Of a stretch of DNA of 64,000 nucleotides, positions 8,540 through 23,842 are shown piece after piece (position 1 is the stretch's first letter; the number at the start of each line of letters is the position of its first letter). The DNA lies in assembly GCF_026241205.1 (NCBI RefSeq), contig NZ_JAPFQM010000006.1, forward strand, positions 620,001 to 684,000, given 5' to 3'. Source of the stretch: Thermomicrobium sp. 4228-Ro. GTDB lineage: Bacteria > Chloroflexota > Chloroflexia > Thermomicrobiales > Thermomicrobiaceae. Position numbers and translations under genes: made by a program. The notes beneath the pieces are model-generated. The model saw only the letters and a program-made list of their open reading frames with translations, was not told the DNA's origin and made no database searches.

Positions 8540-8923
8540 TCACCCTTCCGGTTGGGTGCGCTCTTCCTCGCGCCGGAGCGCGTCGAGCGCCAGCTTGGCG
8601 AGCCCGCCAGCGATATGGACGTTGTGCTCGCTCGGCTCCTCACCGCGCAGGCGCTCGAGCACCGCAGCCTCCGGCGCGCGGAGCAGGTGCCGGACGGCAG
8701 CGGTCGACACGCCGAGAAAGCGCGCGATCTCGTCGGCCGACCAGTGGTGCTCCTCCGAGAGGACGACAGCGTAGGACGCTTCCATGAGACTGGGAAGCCA
8801 AGTGAGGCGCTTCAGCTCGACGAGCTGGCGGGGACCTCCCACGAGCTCGATCGCCTTGAGGAAGACGCGGAGCGCTCGCTGGTCGATATCGGGTGGCTGC
8901 GGTGTCACCTCGATCGGTGTCAT
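8540..8923 (-). CDS. Helix-turn-helix protein paired with the KaiC-like ATPase
   Basis: 127 residues. The central region WSADEIARFLGVSTAAVRHL fits a helix-turn-helix, preceded by SLMEASYAVVLSEEHH and followed by a charged C-terminal helix. It starts inside the stop codon of the upstream KaiC-like gene (ATGA), so the two are translationally coupled. An ATPase of the KaiC/RadA type coupled to a small DNA-binding protein suggests a regulatory pair, but the target is unknown. The HTH call rests on pattern only. Confidence 0.7.
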   Translation of the reverse strand: MTPIEVTPQPPDIDQRALRVFLKAIELVGGPRQLVELKRLTWLPSLMEASYAVVLSEEHHWSADEIARFLGVSTAAVRHLLRAPEAAVLERLRGEEPSEHNVHIAGGLAKLALDALRREEERTQPEG

Positions 8924-9819
8924 TCCGCTTCCTCCTCTCCGGCCGTTGTCGATGATTTCCCGCGTGCGAGGTCGCTGAGTCGCGGCCCGATCCGCACCAG
9001 CCCTTCGGGAGTGATGTCGAGCAGGTGGGTCGCGGTATCGTGCCCGCTCATCCGGCAGCCGTCGATCCGGAACAGTCGCACCGTCTCGCCGATCGGTATC
9101 CGGTAGAGGCGGGCCTGCTGGGCTGTGAGCACCGGTTGCTTGGCCAGGACGAGCGAGCCGTCCAGGATGTGCCCGACCGCGAAGCCGCCGGCCGCCTCCG
9201 CGGTCAGGAGTTCGTGCCCGGACCGCTTCTGGGAGACGGCGAGTGCCGTCTGGTGCCACTTCTTGAGGAACGAATAGAGCGGGCGGACGATCTCGCGTGC
9301 CTGCATCTCGCGCGCCTCGTAGAAGCCGGTCAGCGAGTCGATGACGACCGCGCGTGCCCGGTAGGTGCGGATGGCGTAGGCGAGCGTGCTGAGCAGCGTT
9401 CCCAGGTCGTGGGCGAGGGTGGTGTGGGTGGCTGCGTCGACCAAGATAACCGCGCGATCGACGGCATCCAGCGGCACCCCCATCGCCCGAGCGCGCAGCT
9501 GCAGGCTGAGCGCGACGAAGGGGCCCGGTGCTTCGGTCGTGACGAAGACGCACGGTTCGCCGTGGCGGGCGCGCTCGACGGCGAACTGTTCGACCATGAG
9601 GCTCTTGCCGGTGTCGGAGACGCCGGTGACCTGCAGGACGGCGTAGCGCGGGATACCCCCGAGCGAGCGGCGAACGGGCTTGCCGTCCCGCCACTCGGTC
9701 ACGAAGAAGAGCTCGTCGAGCCCCGGTACACCGGTCGGAACGCCTTCCAGCTTCGGTGTCTTCTCGGCGAGTTCGGCGAGCGGTGCGACGGCCTCGACGA
9801 GCGGCTCGTGCTCGCGCAT
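8920..9819 (-). CDS. Single-domain KaiC/RecA-like ATPase
   Basis: 299 residues. One KaiC-type P-loop domain: VPTGVPGLDELFF near the N-terminus, Walker A GVSDTGKS at residues 66-73, Walker B RAVVIDSL with Asp at about 161, and a late VGHILDGSLVLAK. No second KaiC domain and no zinc finger as in RadA. Probably a signal-transducing ATPase, not a clock protein. It precedes and overlaps the HTH gene. Upstream, 9820-9936 contains only its presumed promoter region. Confidence 0.8.
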   Translation of the reverse strand: MREHEPLVEAVAPLAELAEKTPKLEGVPTGVPGLDELFFVTEWRDGKPVRRSLGGIPRYAVLQVTGVSDTGKSLMVEQFAVERARHGEPCVFVTTEAPGPFVALSLQLRARAMGVPLDAVDRAVILVDAATHTTLAHDLGTLLSTLAYAIRTYRARAVVIDSLTGFYEAREMQAREIVRPLYSFLKKWHQTALAVSQKRSGHELLTAEAAGGFAVGHILDGSLVLAKQPVLTAQQARLYRIPIGETVRLFRIDGCRMSGHDTATHLLDITPEGLVRIGPRLSDLARGKSSTTAGEEEAE

Positions 9820-10864: not shown

Positions 10865-12538
10865 ATGGCGACGCGGTGGGCGGAGTCGCTGGCAGTCGAG
10901 TTTCCGTTCCGGTCACCGCCACCGACGGTGCGACTGGTGCGGAGCGAATCGGCGGAACATCCCTTCGCGCTCACCATCGCCGCTGCCTGGTCGTGTTACG
11001 GGGCTCGGCCCGCCTCGGTCGAGCGGGTGCTGGACCTGTTCGCTGGCAACGGCGACGCCGCTCGTGCTGCCCGCCGAGAGCGGGCGGCAGCGCTCTACCC
11101 GGACCTCTTCGCGGCCGGGCATCACACGACCTTCCAGCACGCGCACTTCGTCTTCGTGCTCGACGGCGTCTCGCGCCTAGCGATCTGGTCGTTCTTCCAC
11201 CATCACCCGTTCTACAACTCGGAACAAGTCTCCCAGCGCTACCGTGAGGTGACCGGTGCGACGATGGTGACGCCGGACCTTCCCGAACCGCTGGCTGCAC
11301 TGTACCGGGCAGCGGTGGAGCGGGCATTGGCCGGCTATCGCCGGTTGGTGGAACTCCTGACCCCCGATATCGCCGCGCGGTACGCGGCCGTCTTCCCCGG
11401 GCGGGCGCGGAGCCAGCGGCCCGACGTGCAGCAACGCGTCCAGACGGCGGTCCAGCGCCGGGCCCAGGAGGTGGCTCGCTACGTCCTGCCGCTGGCCACC
11501 CCAGCGCACCTCTACCACACCGTCAACGCGCTCACGCTGCTCCGCTATTACGCGCTCGCCAACCAGCTCGACGTCCCGCGCGAGGTGCGCTACGTCGTCA
11601 ACCGGATGGTCGAAGAGGTGCTGGCGGTCGATCCCAACTTTCTCGGTGCGCCGGGGCATCCGCTCGACCCGCAGGTGCTGGCGCTCGAGGACACGCTCGA
11701 GTACCGGGCGTTGCGGGCATTCAGCGAGGCGGTGGAGCGCGCGGCCAGCGAGGCGTTCTTCCGCGAGTTCGACGCGGCGCTCGGGCCCTACCATTCGCGA
11801 CTCGTAGCCTACACGCCCGATGCCGAGCGGGTGCTGGCTGACGCGGTGCGCACCGTGCTCGGGCGCGCGCGCAGCGAGCTCGACGACGACACGGCGATCG
11901 CGCTGGTGCTCGACCCGGCACGCAACCACTACCTGGGGCACCCGCTGTACCTGGCGATGCACTCCAAGCTGATGCAGACGCTCAACCACGTCTCCTTCAC
12001 GTTCCAGAAGCGGATCAGCGGGGCGGAGGATGCGCAGAACCAGCGGCATCGCGGCACGTTGAGTTCCGGGCCGGTCCTCCTGGCCCACTTGCGCGAGGAG
12101 CCGGACGTGATCGTGCCGGAGGACATCGCGCGCGTCCCGGCAGCGCTGGACGAGTACTGGGCGACGATCCGGGTGCTGTGGGAGACGAAGAACCGGTTGC
12201 TCGACGCAGGTGTGGCGCCGGAGTCTGCGCTCTATCTCCTCCCGAATGCGCACCACGTCCGGTTCTACGAGTCGGGCACGCTCCTCACCTACTTCTGGAA
12301 GTGGGTCAAGCGACTCTGCTTCGACGCGCAGCGGGAGATCTGGGAGACGGCCCGGCAGGAGACCGAGCAGGTGCGAGCGGTGTTGCCGCGGATCGGCCGC
12401 TACGTGGCGCAACCGCCTTGCGTCCTGCGCGACCAGGCTGGACTGCACCCGCCCTGTCCGGAAGGGGAACGCTACTGCGGCGTGCCGGTCTGGCGCGGTT
12501 ACGACCCGGCGACGCTCCGGGAGCGGCGGGTGCTGTAG
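10865..12538 (+). CDS. thyX: Double-length flavin-dependent thymidylate synthase
   Basis: Methylates dUMP to dTMP using flavin. 557 residues, about twice a normal ThyX (220-250), apparently two fused ThyX folds. First half: GHHTTFQHAHFVF, DGVSRLAI and SEQVSQRY (119-126), but the preceding RHR of the RHRx7S motif is replaced by HHH/HHP. Second half: NHVSFTF (374-380), QNQRHRGTLSS with RHR at 394-396, and a typical C-terminal AQREIWETA. The two signature parts are thus split between halves. ATG 10865 follows GGGAGGAGG; upstream open frame is repeat DNA. Its last 28 bases are the left boundary of the island. Confidence 0.85.
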   Translation: MATRWAESLAVEFPFRSPPPTVRLVRSESAEHPFALTIAAAWSCYGARPASVERVLDLFAGNGDAARAARRERAAALYPDLFAAGHHTTFQHAHFVFVLDGVSRLAIWSFFHHHPFYNSEQVSQRYREVTGATMVTPDLPEPLAALYRAAVERALAGYRRLVELLTPDIAARYAAVFPGRARSQRPDVQQRVQTAVQRRAQEVARYVLPLATPAHLYHTVNALTLLRYYALANQLDVPREVRYVVNRMVEEVLAVDPNFLGAPGHPLDPQVLALEDTLEYRALRAFSEAVERAASEAFFREFDAALGPYHSRLVAYTPDAERVLADAVRTVLGRARSELDDDTAIALVLDPARNHYLGHPLYLAMHSKLMQTLNHVSFTFQKRISGAEDAQNQRHRGTLSSGPVLLAHLREEPDVIVPEDIARVPAALDEYWATIRVLWETKNRLLDAGVAPESALYLLPNAHHVRFYESGTLLTYFWKWVKRLCFDAQREIWETARQETEQVRAVLPRIGRYVAQPPCVLRDQAGLHPPCPEGERYCGVPVWRGYDPATLRERRVL

Positions 12539-14484: not shown

Positions 14485-17400
14485 ATGGCCAAGACGCTCG
14501 CTGAACTGTGTATCCCGCGTGAATGGGTGTTCGATCCGAGCGTTCGTGACACGGTCCATGACATCGACGAGCTGGACCAACTCGACCCGGAGCGCTTCTT
14601 CGCTGAGAACTATGTGACTGAGGGGATGCGGCAACTGCTCAGCGAGGCCTTCAAGCGTCTGGAGGGGCGGACCGAGAACGCCTCCGGTATCTTCCTGCTC
14701 TCGCAGTCCATGGGTGGTGGCAAGACGCATAACCTGCTGGCACTCGGGCTCCTCGCCAAGTATCCCAAGTGGCGCGAGCCGGTCATGGGCTCCTTCTATC
14801 GACCAGGACCGCTGGGGTCGGTCCGGGTGGTTGCCTTCAGCGGACGGAAGACGAATACCCCTACGGTATCTGGGGCGAGATCGCTGAACGACTGAACCGG
14901 CGGGAGGTGTTGCGCGACTTCTACAGCCCGCTCCGGGCACCGGGTGTGGAAAACTGGGTCGAACTCTTGCGGGGTGATCCGGTTCTCCTGCTCCTCGACG
15001 AGTTGCCGCCCTATTTCCAGGCTGCGCGAGCGATTCAAGTCGGGCAAACGACGCTCGACCACCTGACTACCGTCGCTCTCGCCAATCTCCTGGTCGCCGT
15101 CGCGAGCGGGAAACTCCCGAACGTCTGTGTCGTCCTGACCGACCTGCGTGCCCAGGCCTACGAGGCGGGGAGCACGGCAATCTCGGAGGCGCTCCGCAAT
15201 CTGGAGCTGGAAGCGAACCGCACCGCAACGCGGATCGATCCCGTTCGCTTGAACACGGCCGAGTTGTACGCGATCCTGAGGCAACGACTCTTCAAGGCAC
15301 TTCCCGCGGATGCGGAGATCAGCGAGGTGGCAGACGCCTACGCCCAGGCACTGGAGCAGGCGCGCGTGCTCGACTTGACGGCGTTCCCGCCACACGCCGT
15401 GCGGAGCGAGATCCTGTCTTCGTACCCCTTCCATCCGGGGATCCGCGACCTTTCGCCCGCTTTCGCGAGAACCCGGGCTTTCAGCAAACACGCGCGCTGA
15501 TTCGCATCATGCGGATTGTCGTCGCGCAGTTGTGGTCGGCGGGCGCCGCGCGGTACAAGTTTCTGATCGGGGCTCATGACGTCGACCTCAGCCGCTCGGA
15601 CATGATCAGTGAGATCCGGCAGATCAATGCCGCACTCGAGAACGCGATCGCCCACGACATTGTCGATGAGCGGGGTGGCGCGGTTGCCCAACAGATCGAC
15701 GCTGAACTCGGTGGGAGCAGTGCTCGCGATGCGGCAACGTTGATCTTCCTCTCCTCGTTGTCGCTGGCGGTCAATCCAGTCCTCGGGTTAGATCGGTCGG
15801 AGATCTTCGGCTATCTGGCCGAACCGGGCCGTGACCTTACGCAGGTGCGAGAGGCTCTGGATCGTCTCCAGCAGCGTGCCTGGTATCTCCACCCGACGGC
15901 AGCTGGGAAGCTGCTCTTCAAGAACGTCGAGAACCTGAACGCGAAACTCGAAAGTTACGCGAGCGGGCTACGCGACGAACGCGAACTCGAGCTCCGGGAC
16001 CGCCTCCGCGAGATGTTCGCGCCGAAGGTCGGCAACTGTTATCAGGTCGTGGAACCGTTGCCAGCGCTCGATCAGATTCAGCTGAGCCCGGAACGGGTGA
16101 CGTTGATCGTCTTCCGACCACTGCCGACAGCTCTGGACGAGGTACGACGCTGGTGGGAAAACCAGCAATACAAGAACCGCGTCCTCTTCCTCACGGGAAC
16201 GCCCTCCGGTTACGAGCGCGTGATCGAGCGCGCGGCTTATCTCCGCGCCATCCGGCAGATCCTGCAGGAGTTCAAGCAGCAGAACCTTCCGGAGACCGAT
16301 CCGCAGTTCATCGAGGCGCGCAAGATCGCCGAGCGCGAGGAGAGCGCGTTCTACCTGGCTTGCCGCGAAACCTTTCAGATCCTCTACTACCCGTACCGGA
16401 CCGGGCTCGTTCAGGTCGAGCTCGACCCGCGGTACGTCGCGAACCGTTACGAGGGAGAACAGCAAATCGTGGAAGCCCTCAAGGCGGTCGGAAAGTTCCG
16501 TGAGGACACTGGCCCGGACTCGGTGGGGTTCCGGCAGCTCCTCGAGAGCCGCCTGTGGCCGGAGGGGCAAAGGAAGTGCTCTGGTCGGAAATCAAGCGGC
16601 GAGCGGCAACTGACGCCGGCTGGGTGCTCCATCACCCGCGGGCGCTCGACCACCTCAAGGACGCGCTCGTCCAGCGAGACATCTGGCGCGATATCGGCGG
16701 GGGTACATCCAGCGCGGGCCATTCCCGAAGCCGAAAACGTCGGTACAGGTCCAACGTCTCTTCCGCGACCACAACACCGGCGAAGCCAACCTCCGCATCC
16801 AACCCTTGCACGGAGACACGATCTACTATAGTTTCGACGGCCCTCCCACCACGCAATCGGCGAAGCTCGAGGGTAACCAGCTCACGACCCGAGCGTTGCG
16901 CATCTGGTTCCTCGCCGTCGACTCGCGAGGGAGCACGAGACCGGCGAGCCGGTGTGCTGGACGAACGACCTGGAGGTCAAGTATCGCTTCTACCAGCAGG
17001 GTGAGCAGCGGATGTGCGAACTCCGCGCTATCCCCGAAGGGGAGATCCGGTACACGCTCGACGGTTCCAGCCCTGAACGCAGTGGGATCCGCTATGAGGG
17101 GCCGTTTCCGGTCCCGTCGAAGACACGGACGATCCTGGCGCAAGCCGTCGCCGACGGGCTGCGGTCTCCTGTCCTCCAGATCGATGTGCCGATCGACCCG
17201 ATTGGACCGACCGTCGATCCGCGCAAGCCAGCGCTCTGGCGGCGTCGTCACAAGCTGGACGACACGGGGACACCTATCGCTTCCTCGAGTCGATCGAGCG
17301 GCACGGGGCGCGCTTGCGCGGTATCACTGCGATCGTTGCCCGGGAACAGCGCTGGGTCCAGCTGAGCGCTGACCCGCAGACCGAGTTCACCGCGTCCCAG

Positions 17401-18191: not shown

Positions 18192-21130
18192 ATGCAAGCA
18201 AGGGAAGGACCGAACGCTGCTCCACACCCGGCAACCGAGACGGTGCGAGCCCAGGGCGATGCGCCTGCGTTCATCGAAGTGCAGTTTCCGGTCAGCAAGC
18301 TCTCCAAGGAGTGTTACAAGGAGCGCAAGGCTGTTGTTGGCCAGACGCTTACGGCACTCGGCAAGTGGTGGGGGCGCAAGCCGCTCGTCCTGGTGCGGGC
18401 CATCCTGCTCGGACTGCTGATGCCGGCCACGGACGATCCAGCCGCTGACCGCGAGGCCTTCCTCGCCGCACTGACGATGGACGACGACGGGATGCTCCGC
18501 CGGTTCACCGGTCAAGCGAGCCCTGCCGACCTCGCTCCGTTCTGTACCCCGCGCGAGCGCGCCGAGTACTTCGTGAGCGAGAACGGGAAGCTGAGCTGGC
18601 GGCCCGGGCTCTCGGCGGCCGACCGCCAGCACCTCAAGCGGCGGGCCTTCCTCCGCATGGGCTACGACGACCGCCTGCGCTTCTGTCTCCGGCCGGAGGA
18701 GATCGATGGGCCGAGCGAGGCAGCCTGGGAGCGGATCAACCGGCACCTGGGCACGACCGCGCGGAGCCTGCCCGACCTCGTCCGCCAGCTGGGTGCACGA
18801 CGCTTCGGGCACGTGCCGCGGGTCGGTGATGCCTTCTGCGGTGGCGGCAGCATCCCGTTCGAGGCGGCCCGGCTCGGCTGCGAGGCCTACGCCTCGGACT
18901 TGAACCCGGTCGCGGTGCTGCTCACCTGGGGCGCGCTGGCGCTCACCGGCGGCGGGCCGGAGGTCGTCGAGCGCGTCACGGCGGCCCAGCGCCGCGTCTT
19001 CGAGGACGTGCGGCGGCAGGTCGAGGCCTGGGGGATCGAGCGGAACGAGGAGGGCTGGGTCGCCGATGCCTACCTGTACTGCCATGAGGTGCGCGACCCG
19101 CTGACCGGCTGGTGGGTACCGCTGGCGCCGACCTGGGTGATCTCGAAGAAGCGGCGGGTGGTGGCGAAACTGGTGCCCGATCCGGCAACCAAGCGGTTCG
19201 CCATCGAGATCCACGAAGGAGTGAGCGAGGCCGAACTCCGCCGGGCCGAGGAGGACGGAACCTGGGCCAGCGGCGTGCGCTGTCCGGTCGACCGTGACGG
19301 GAACTGGCTGCCGCCGGCCCAGCGGCAGGTGACGAGCGCCGAGCAACTCCGCGGCCGGACCGGCCTGCGGCCGTGGGAGAACGACGACCTGGTACCGCGT
19401 CCGGACGACGTCTTCCAGGAGCGACTCTACTGCATCCGCTGGATCGATCCCGAGACGGGCGAACGGTTCTACCGGGCGCCGACCGCGGCCGACCTGGCCC
19501 GGGAGCAGCGGGTGCTGGAACTCTTGCGCGCGCGCTTCGCCGAGTGGCAGGACAAGGGCTACCTGCCGAGCGCCCGAATCGAACCAGGAGACAAGACCGA
19601 GGAACCGATCCGGACGCGTGGCTGGACGCACTGGCACCACCTGTTCAACCCCCGGCAGCTCTTGCTGCACGGCCTCTTGGCCGAGCGCGCGGCCCAGGAA
19701 GCCGGGCTGGAGGCGGCAGCGCTCCTCTTGATGCTCGGAAGGGTAGCAGACTGGAATAGTCGTTTATCTCTATGGGAACCAAGTCAAGAGGGCGTCAAAA
19801 ATACCTTTTATAATCAAGCTCTAAATGTTCCCGTCAATTATGGGACACGGGCACTGTCATCATTATCTACAACATTCTGTATAAACATCAATGCATCAAC
19901 GGTGCAAGGAAGCTGGAAAGTTGAGCCTATCGATGCGCGCGCCGTGGACTGGGAGGCCGATCTCTGGATCACCGATCCCGGGTATGGCGACAACGTAAAC
20001 TACCACGAACTCTCCGAGTTCTTCCTGGCCTGGTACGAGAAGCGGCTTCCCCAGCTCTTCCCCGGCTGGTACGCCGAGAGCAAGCGAGCGCTCGCGGTGA
20101 AGGGCGAGGGGAGACGTTCCGCCTGGCGCTCGCGGAGTGCTACCGGAACCTGGCGCGCCGCATGCCGGACGACGGCTACCAGGTGGTCCTGTTCGTCCAC
20201 CAGGATCCGGAGATGTGGGTCGACCTCACCCTCGTGCTGTGGGCAGCGGGCCTCCAGGTCACTGCCGCCTGGACGGTGCTGACCGAGACCACGAGCGGGA
20301 TCCGCTCCGGCAACTACGTCCAGGGGACGGTGCTCCTCGTCCTGCGGAAGCGTCAGGGCGACCGCCGTGGGGAACTGGTCGACCTGTACCCGGAGATTCG
20401 AGCCGAGGTCGAGCGCCAGCTGGAGACGATGCTCGCGCTCGACCCGAAGGAGGACCCGAACTTCGGCGACGCCGACTACCAGCTCGCCGCCTACGCGGCT
20501 GCCCTGCGCGTCCTGACGAGCTACAGCGCGATCGCTGATATCGACGTCGAGCGCGAGTTGCGGCGTCCCCGGAGCCCGGGCGAGGTCACACCGATCGGCC
20601 GGATCATCGAGCAGGCCGTACGGATCGCGACCGACTACCTGGTGCCCGATGGACTCGAGCGGACCGTCTGGCGGCAACTCGGCCCGGAGGAGAGGCTGTA
20701 CCTCAAGGGGATCGAGATCGAAGCCCACGGCGAGGCACGCGAAGGGGTCTACCAGGAGTTCGCCCGGACCTACGGCGCGCGGGAGTTCCGTTCGCTGCTC
20801 GCGAGCCGGTCTGCCAACCGCGCGCGTCTCAAGACACCGTCGGAGTTCGCCAACCGTGAGCTGCGCCCGATCGGGCAGAGCGGGTTCGGTGGGACGCTCC
20901 TCCGCCATGTGCTGTTCGCGATCTACCGGACGGCGAGCGACCCCGAACAGGACCCGCGTCCAGCGCGCCAGTACCTCCGGCAGGAGGTGCCCGACTACTG
21001 GCAGGCGCGGCAGACGATCGTCGCGCTCCTGCAGTATCTCGGTACCAAACCGATGGGCCTGGCGCACTGGCAGCCCGACGTGCAGGCGGCGCGACGGCTA
21101 CGGGCTGTCGTGGAAGCGGATACCCTCTAA
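18192..21130 (+). pseudogene. DUF1156 DNA methyltransferase, one frameshift
   Basis: Probable adenine DNA methyltransferase of the defence operon, 979 residues if corrected. The N-terminal DUF1156 region (ECYKERKAVVGQTLTALGKW) and SAM-binding motif I DAFCGGGSIPFEAARLG from residue 213 are intact. Motif IV is DPGYGDNVNYHELSEFF at 595-611, with Gly where DPPY is usual. One G is missing from the run 20108-20111, after residue about 640; the second half continues in the next frame to 21130 (VVLFVHQDPEMW). Bases 19741-19920 are AT-rich with foreign codon use. It would modify host DNA so that the helicase/nuclease partners spare it (inference). Confidence 0.85.
19741..19920 (+). other. AT-rich patch inside the methyltransferase gene
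   Basis: By hand count 75 of 180 bases are G or C (42%), in a gene that is otherwise clearly above 60%. The reading frame stays open, but codons switch to TTA, CTA, AGT, ATA and AAT, rare elsewhere in the window. It encodes about 60 residues (from near SLWEPSQEGVKNTFYN) directly before catalytic motif IV. This looks like a segment recombined in from a lower-GC homologue. Confidence 0.7.
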
Positions 21131-21142
21131 CGGAGGCTGCCG

Positions 21143-23842
21143 GTGCTGTTGCGCTATTCCTCCCGACGCGCACCGCTCCGTGCCTTTCTCACCGAGGCCC
21201 TGGACGGTGCACTGGCATACGATCGGATCGCTGGTTTCTTCAGTTCCTCGATCCTCGAGGTCGCTGGAGAGCCGCTGGAGCGGATGGCACCCGGTGCGCG
21301 GGTGCGTGTCGTCGCCAACTCCGCGTTGCAGCCGCTGGACGTCGCGACGGCACGGGCGGCGAAGGCCGCGATGTACGCCGAGTGGTGCCGGTCGCTTCCG
21401 GAGTACCTCCCACCCCGGTTGAAGGAGCGGCTCCGTCGCCTCTACACGTTTCTGGCGAGCGGTCAACTCCAGGTGCGCGTCTTGCCCGATGCCTATTTCG
21501 GTCTCATCCACGGGAAGGCCGGCGTGATCACGCGAGCCGATGGCTCGCGGATCGCGTTTCTGGGAAGCGTCAACGAGTCACGGGAAGCGTGGGAGGTCAA
21601 CTACGAACTCCTCTGGGCTGACGACTCGGAAGCCGGTGTCTCCTGGACGATAGAGGAGTTCGAGGCGCTCTGGCACCACGCTGGTGCCGTCGATCTGGCT
21701 GATGCCGTGGTTCGGGATATCGAGCGCCTGACGCGCCGGATCGTGGTACCGAGTATCGCCGAGTGGCGTGAGCAGTACCGAGCGGAGCCGGCTGCTGCAG
21801 TGGTGGAGCTGCCGGTCGCTCGCCAGGGAACCGGCTTGTGGGCGCACCAGAAGTACTTCGTCAAGCTCGCGTTCGACCTGCATCGCCAGCGTGGGGCCCG
21901 GCTCCTCCTGGCGGACGAGGTTGGGCTCGGCAAGACGGTCCAGCTCGGGCTCGCGGCCAAATTGATGGCCCTCTGGGGTGGTGGGAATGTCCTGGTGCTC
22001 GTCCCCAAGCCCCTCCTCTGGCAGTGGCAAGACGAACTGTGGGACTTGCTCGCGGTGCCCTCGGCGGTGTGGACAGGCCGGGGTTGGACCGACGAGAACG
22101 GCGTGGACTATCCGGCGAATGGGCTAGAGGGACTGCGCCGCTGCCCACGAAAGGTGGGAATCGTCTCGGCTGGGCTCATCACGCAGTCCGATGAGGCTGC
22201 CGAGATCCTGGCTAGCCTCCGCTACGAGTGTGTGATCCTCGACGAGGCACACCGGGCGCGACGCCGAAACCTCGGTCCATCGCATCGCAACGAGAAGGCC
22301 GATCCGAATAACTTGCTCCGCTTCCTGCAGCGTGTGGCCGAGCGGACGCGGAGCCTGCTCCTCGCGACGGCGACACCCGTGCAACTCGACCCGATCGAGG
22401 CCTGGGATTTGCTGGAAGCACTCAATCGCGGTAACGAGACCGTCCTCGGAAGCCGGTACAGTCGATGGCTCACTCGCCCGCGTGAGGGGCTGGACTACGT
22501 GCTCGACCGGGCGAGTCCGCCGGACGACGTGCGGGAAGTCTGGGAGTGGGTCCGCGATCCGTTGCCGCCGGCGAGCGAGGGACCAGTCTTCGCTATCCTC
22601 CGCCGGTCACTCGGGATGAACGAGACGGAAAGCTGGGCACCGCCGGAAGCGTTCGATCGTCTCGCTCCACCAGCGCAGCACCAGCTCGAGCGTCTCGGCC
22701 GCGAGTTCTTCCGGAACCACAATCCCTTCGTTCGACATATTGTCCGGCGAACGCGCGAGTTCTTGGAGCAGACCATCGACCCCGAGACGGGTGAGCCCTA
22801 TCTCACGCCGGTACGGGTCCGCCTGTTCGGTGAAGGCGAGCACGATGCGCTCTTGTTGCCGCCGATTCTCAAGGATGCCTACAAGACTGCTGAAGAATTT
22901 TGTCAGGAAGTGGCATCGCGCCCTGGGCTCAATTCGGGTTTTCTCAAGACGCTCCTCCTGCGCCGGGTGGGGAGCACGATCGAGGCGGGGAGGTTGACCG
23001 CACTGCGACTCCTCGAAGGAGGTGAGCAGGCCGATGAAGATGAGGAGGAGGAACGCCCCTCGCTCCTCTATCCCCTCACCGAACGGGAGCGGGACTTGCT
23101 CGAGCGCTTTCTCCGGTTGCTGGAAGCGGCGAGGGAGGAAGACCCAAAGTTGCAAGCGGTCACCGATTTGCTCTGCCACGGTGTCGACGATACCGGACCG
23201 TGGCGGTCTCTCGGCTGTATCGTCTTCAGTCAATATTATGACTCGGCGCAGTGGCTAGCGCGACGCCTCTCCGAGCAGCTTCCCGAGGAGGAGATCGGCC
23301 TGTATGCTGGCTCGGGCAAGTCGCAGCTCTTCCAAGGGGAACTGCGACGCGCGTTGGCCGGGATGTACTCAAGGAGCGTGTGCAGCGGGGGAATTGCGCA
23401 TTTTGGTCGGGACGGACGCTGCCTCGGAAGGGCTCAATCTGCAGCGACTCGGGACACTCATCAATGTGGATCTGCCGTGGAATCCGACCCGTCTCGAGCA
23501 GCGTAAGGGGCGAATCCAGCGGATCGGTCAGCCTCGGGCGGTCGTTTTTCTCGCCAACCTGCGCTATCGGGGATCGGTGGAGGATCGGGTGCACCAGCTT
23601 CTCTCGGACCGGTTCCGTGCGATTCACGATATGTTCGGTCAGCTCCCGAGACACTGGAAGATGTATGGATCGCGGTCGCCCTGCACGAGGAAGAGAAGGC
23701 TCGGCACCTCATCGATGCCGTACCCCGGAAGCATCCCTTCGCGCTTCGCTACCATCAGATCACGCCCGTTTCGTGGGAGACTTGTGCAGCCGTGCTGGAG
23801 CGAGAGAGCCAGCTGGAGTTGCTGCGTCAGGGCTGGCAGTGA
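21143..23842 (+). pseudogene. PLD-nuclease/SNF2 helicase, three frameshifts
   Basis: Effector-type protein of the operon, 900 residues if corrected. N-terminal phospholipase-D-like domain (HGKAGVI...LGSVNES), then a superfamily-2 helicase: ADEVGLGKT Walker A at 257-265, DEAH at 367-370, SAT-like LATATP, and C-terminal TDAASEGLNLQR and QRKGRIQRIGQ. One base is missing at each of G3 23360-23362, G5 23387-23391 and C3 23645-23647; restoring them joins three frames into one ending at TGA 23842. As read, the product loses the second helicase lobe. Start GTG 21143 follows GGAGG, 12 bases after the methyltransferase. PLD-helicase plus methylase recalls DISARM-like logic. Confidence 0.85.

Follow-up and report, generated by a model that had tools for sequence, protein, structure and literature searches.

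The window, by which we mean the whole stretch of 64,000 nucleotides that was analysed, encodes a protein of 557 residues in an open reading frame with an ATG start (Table 1). Its nearest annotated relative is a gene of 557 codons in Thermomicrobium roseum, located on the 918-kb megaplasmid (NC_011961.1) and flanked by a KaiC-domain gene; the orthologous product, WP_012643046.1 ('FAD-dependent thymidylate synthase'), is of equal annotated length. A KaiC-domain gene lies near the gene of the window too (8920–9819). Around the latter gene, no Rfam match and no biosynthetic cluster were found. Three ORFs in different frames (14485–16831) correspond to consecutive segments of the DUF499 model. The DUF499 gene is intact in T. 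roseum, where it forms one CDS, and the split ORFs may represent a frameshifted gene or assembly indels. They are followed at 18192–23506 by a DUF1156 methyltransferase (two overlapping ORFs) and a PLD-helicase. This DUF499/DUF1156/PLD-helicase island beside the ThyX gene is a candidate anti-phage locus.

Profile searches showed matches of PF02511 (Thy1) to two stretches of the 557-residue protein, with 194.5 bits for the whole protein at a cut-off of 24.8. The N-half match spans residues 31–258. In the genome search each half passed this cut-off singly (110 and 86 bits). TIGR02170 reached 99.2 bits for the whole protein over two stretches (cut-off 87.9), and no match of PF00303 (ThyA) to the protein was obtained. 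A single-chain AlphaFold2 model computed from 58 family sequences had a mean pLDDT of 87.9 and a pTM of 0.88, and the order of helices and strands was identical in both halves. Using VIA-align, the C-half was superimposed on Mycobacterium tuberculosis (Mtb) ThyX 3gwc_B with a Z-score of 14.3 and an rmsd of 2.1 over 200 residues, and the N-half on PolB 4p5b_C with a Z-score of 13.4 and an rmsd of 2.3 over 199 residues; unrelated structures in the same alignment list remained below 6. The 50 best Foldseek matches listed were exclusively ThyX-type structures. The preliminary description of this DNA had proposed two ThyX-like halves, and both the profile matches and the predicted folds bear this out. 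A C-terminal cysteine motif, recognized by its invariance, may bind a metal.

Table 1. Features of the two-half ThyX gene. Roles A, B and C refer to the three subunits that build one active site in solved ThyX structures (see text).
Feature	Position	Strand	Remarks
Two-half ThyX gene	10865..12538	+	557 aa plus stop
N-half, ThyX fold, ~residues 16-270	10910..11674	+	AF2 model vs PolB 4p5b_C; Pfam
GHHTTFQH, residues 85-92, TM0449 H53/T55 equivalents, role B	11117..11140	+	H86, T88 81/81; search seed
GVSR 101-104; R104 = Mtb Arg87, role C	11165..11176	+	R104 81/81
N-half HHH 112-114 replacing RHR	11198..11206	+	H112, H114 81/81; partly seed
SEQVSQRY 119-126 = S88, R90, Y91 equivalents, role C	11219..11242	+	alignment and conservation counts
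N-half R205 = R147 equivalent, role C	11477..11479	+	81/81; PolB Arg166' comparison
N-half R227 at N169 position	11543..11545	+	81/81
Linker between halves, ~residues 271-304	11675..11776	+	AF2 secondary structure, pLDDT
C-half, ThyX fold, ~residues 305-557	11777..12535	+	VIA-align vs 3gwc_B
C-half Q391 = Q75 equivalent, role A	12035..12037	+	81/81; PBCV-1 Gln75 monomer A
C-half RHR 394-396, role A, FAD phosphates and flavin ring	12044..12052	+	81/81; non-seed
C-half R483 = R174 equivalent, role A	12311..12313	+	80/80
C-terminal cysteine motif C519...C531PEG...C538G	12419..12478	+	invariant across family

In the solved ThyX enzymes each active site combines parts of three subunits: RHR and R174 from A, SxRY and R147 from C, and T/S55 and R165 from B. 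Residues are given here in Thermotoga maritima (TM0449) numbering, which was confirmed against the chain sequence; the original account of such a three-monomer site is reportedly that of Leduc in 2004. In Mtb ThyX, subunit A provides RHR (95–97) and Arg199, subunit C provides Arg87, which binds dUMP, Ser105, Arg107, Tyr108 and a backbone contact of Gln103, and subunit B provides Ser71 and Arg190 (PMC6514825). In the PBCV-1 enzyme, monomer A contributes Gln75 and Arg182, and monomer B contributes Ser88 and Gln89 (PMC3498832). PolB carries Arg82/His83 on one monomer, and Ser96', Arg98' and Arg166', which we infer to be equivalent to R147, together on its neighbour (PMC5003785). R174 activates N3 of dUMP (PMC8316439).

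The residues of both halves were mapped by alignment onto TM0449 and Mtb ThyX, and conservation was counted over 81 family members. The C-half retained Q75, R78, H79 and R80 in every member and R174 in 80 of 80, and lost R90 (mostly A), R147 (mostly L), T55 (K) and the GxSR arginine (H or G); its Y91 and E58 positions are variable. Conversely, the N-half retained S88, R90, R147, the GxSR arginine, H53 and T55 in all 81 members and Y91 in 80, that is, S123 and R125 of SEQVSQRY are invariant and Y126 nearly so. Here the R78 and R80 positions are occupied by H, with S (66), H (14) or A (1) at position 113 between them, and the R174 position (232) by C, A, V or S. In the protein as a whole, the dUMP residues are thus complete, with R394 and R483 in the C-half (R78, R174) and S123, R125, Y126 and R205 in the N-half (S88, R90, Y91, R147). 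In canonical ThyX, ten residues separate RHR from SxRY. Here they lie in different halves: in the 81 members RHR is confined to the C-half and SxRY to the N-half, and no single ThyX domain has a contiguous RHR...SxRY. The search seeds AGHHTTF and IWSFxHxH, both from the N-half, bias the 81-sequence set toward their own conservation. The C-half positions as well as S123, R125, Y126, R205 and R104 are non-seed positions, and loci fetched via Pfam, for which the two motifs did not serve as seeds, showed motifs identical to those of the 81-member set. The split of the motifs is not due to chance, since RHR in the C-half, and SxRY and HxH in the N-half, show little or no variation among the relatives.

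In the alignment, residue losses track the crystallographic subunit roles and not sequence proximity. The preliminary description had placed GVSR, HHH and SEQVSQRY in the N-half and an RHR without SxRY in the C-half, which holds at exactly these positions, LSSGPVLLAH standing at the SxRY place. It had also suggested that the halves are complementary, and the division proved to be wider than claimed: it also takes in R174, R147, the GxSR arginine, H53 and T55, following the roles seen in the M. tuberculosis, PBCV-1 and PolB structures. One FAD contact, R165 (Mtb Arg190), is lost in both halves (the N-half has L, I or V there and the C-half mostly L), and N163 is present in a minority of N-halves only, so that FAD binding must differ somewhat. 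A candidate substitute for R165 is the invariant R227 of the N-half, which lies one helical turn from it.

Judging from sequence and homology, it is likely that the sole thymidylate synthase of this organism is a ThyX of two halves which hold complementary roles and form composite sites between them. Like ThyX, such an enzyme would use FAD and methylenetetrahydrofolate to methylate dUMP. Each chain joins two ThyX folds, as modelled, and two chains would assemble into a pseudo-tetramer. In canonical ThyX the four chains are equivalent; A gives RHR and R174, C the SxRY loop, the GxSR arginine and R147, and B the T/S55–R165 pair. Under 222 symmetry the sites, written in the order of the chains giving RHR, SxRY and T55, are (A,C,B), (B,D,A), (C,A,D) and (D,B,C). 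The C-half would supply role A only, and the N-half would supply role C and, of role B, T55/H53. With C-halves as A and D and N-halves as B and C, all roles would be filled at two sites and none at the other two. Because two of the four positions get every part and two get none, each chain should account for one live site. In a two-chain pseudo-tetramer two sites would then be complete and two entirely dead, and we predict this tetramer geometry together with FAD bound 1:1 per chain and catalytic activity.

Alternatively, the N-half alone might be the enzyme, with sites formed between N-halves, HxH and R227 replacing RHR and R174, and the C-half being structural. Most dUMP-binding residues are indeed present in the N-half, its Thy1 profile score is above that of the C-half, and H112, H114 and R227 are invariant. 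However, a merely structural half would not retain the exact catalytic set of subunit A, and the C-half has kept Q75, RHR and R174 without exception among the relatives while its other site residues have decayed. RHR and R174 are found in the C-half of two other divergent two-half groups as well. We consider this explanation unlikely.

The protein is probably the sole thymidylate synthase of the organism, as deduced from the gene content of the genome. In the own genome, which is 99.89% complete, no second Thy1, no ThyA, no DHFR and no thymidine kinase were found, which leaves the two-half ThyX as the only recognizable source of dTMP. A second ThyX or a ThyA, named in the preliminary description as what could make the protein dispensable, is thus lacking. 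Among 50 genomes bearing the family, 49 are devoid of ThyA, the exception having a weak partial ThyA-like match (26.6 bits), and 49 are devoid of a further Thy1. Two genomes, which are exceptions to a sole synthase, encode a two-half and a single-domain ThyX together. In 120 Chloroflexia genomes, Thy1 was present in 94 and ThyA in 11 with zero overlap, and approximately 15, many of them incomplete, had neither. Two of the family-f1 genomes are 98% complete and have neither Thy1 nor ThyA; contigs may be missing or another route may be used. Two ThyA matches from Chloroflexia lie in frames of about 500 residues and cover only profile positions 84–257 (59–76 bits), representing a long, divergent ThyA.

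This distribution also bears on the idea that the protein is another flavin-dependent pyrimidine methyltransferase, acting on UMP like PolB, or a regulator, and that dTMP is made by salvage or an unknown enzyme. In its favour, the N-half matches best in structure to PolB, which methylates UMP and dUMP, and the canonical FAD contacts are gone from both halves. Against it, the 99.9%-complete genome yielded no ThyA, no other ThyX, no DHFR and no thymidine kinase, the distribution relative to ThyA is nearly exclusive over the 50 and 120 genomes, and no biosynthetic cluster surrounds the gene. We consider such a function very improbable.

Searching one genome per species, relatives of the two-half ThyX were found to be encoded by 183 stretches, of which 80 were retained. 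These belong to Thermomicrobiota, Chloroflexota, Elusimicrobiota, Omnitrophota, Myxococcota, Acidobacteriota, Sumerlaeota, Bacteroidota, Nitrospirota, Planctomycetota and other phyla. The upstream frame is open to 10157, and frame length alone is hence weak evidence, but the length and architecture are identical in T. roseum and in relatives over many phyla and the two-domain model is confident, so that an ordinary ThyX with two paralogues joined by an assembly or frameshift artefact can be dismissed as extremely improbable. No relatives were confirmed on viral contigs, and phages and plasmids, apart from the T. roseum megaplasmid copy, yielded only single-domain ThyX. In two Thermomicrobiales genomes, the single-domain ThyX contains an intein-like insert of about 440 residues with an HNH-like stretch, which sits between RHRT and S(V/A)NE(L/I)SxRY.

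Two divergent groups of two-half ThyX in Chloroflexia are split as in the window family. The Chloroflexales-like proteins (about 550 residues) were not detected by the window protein at E 0.001. STRY, R147 and S55 are present in their N-half, from which RHR and R174 are missing; the C-half has kept RHR, R174 and N163/R165, but Q replaces R147 and R replaces S88. Here the split is slightly less clean, since R90 of the C-half is R, G or P. An AlphaFold2 model of this type was poor owing to too few sequences (pLDDT 59.8, pTM 0.51). The Herpetosiphon-like proteins have the identical polarity, with R174 read from one complete sequence. In a tree of the halves, the A-type N-halves, the A-type C-halves and the B/H-type N-halves jointly each formed a clade, and the N-halves were already grouped with a support of 62/17. 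No joint clade was rejected in AU tests, from which the long-branched H-type C-half was left out; P was 0.35 for uniting the C-halves, 0.32 for uniting the A halves and 0.44 for uniting the B/H halves. The two-half gene may have originated from tandem duplication or from fusion of two paralogues. That the complementary split arose more than once, in the window family and in the Chloroflexales and Herpetosiphon-like groups, as a repeated and directional outcome, is a tentative reading that we regard as somewhat doubtful. If true, the change from a symmetric three-subunit site to an asymmetric enzyme with half the sites would be a case of recurrent evolution.

ThyX is essential where no other thymidylate synthase exists, and its absence from humans makes it a drug target. 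In this family a homotetramer with three-subunit sites has apparently become an asymmetric enzyme, in which the losses match the subunit roles seen in crystals. It represents a natural mutational test of which residue acts in which subunit, and a clear, bench-testable case of interdependence between duplicated parts. The phyla concerned are many and poorly sampled in culture, and the database label 'FAD-dependent thymidylate synthase' omits the architecture.

In the open-access literature, duplicated or asymmetric ThyX was found only in the study of Valas and Bourne (2009), and neither a role partition nor later work on mechanism was found. These authors reported that Chloroflexi except Dehalococcoides have only a domain-duplicated, uncharacterised ThyX, and touched on its occurrence outside Chloroflexi only as 'a few other species' (PMC3224940). 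Their genomes probably include the divergent Chloroflexales group besides the window family. The architecture was thus already noted in 2009, whereas residue analysis and mechanism are lacking there; the role partition, the prediction of two live and two dead sites and the breadth of the family are new here. Compared with canonical ThyX (TM0449, Mtb, PBCV-1; PF02511/TIGR02170), the fold of the halves, the full presence of the catalytic residues of roles A and C and the genomic distribution as an alternative to ThyA are shared. In contrast, one chain here comprises two halves with an incomplete motif each, R165 is lost in both, and the four equal sites of canonical ThyX are expected to be replaced by two live and two dead ones. 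PolB (4p5a/4p5b, PMC5003785), the top structural match of the N-half, is likewise a homotetramer of ThyX fold, but it is a single-domain protein of the polyoxin pathway with all catalytic residues in one chain type. Finally, as in heteromers that evolved from homomers by complementary loss, the duplicated parts hold complementary subsets of an intersubunit site; unlike in those cases, both parts reside in one chain and it is a three-subunit site that is partitioned.
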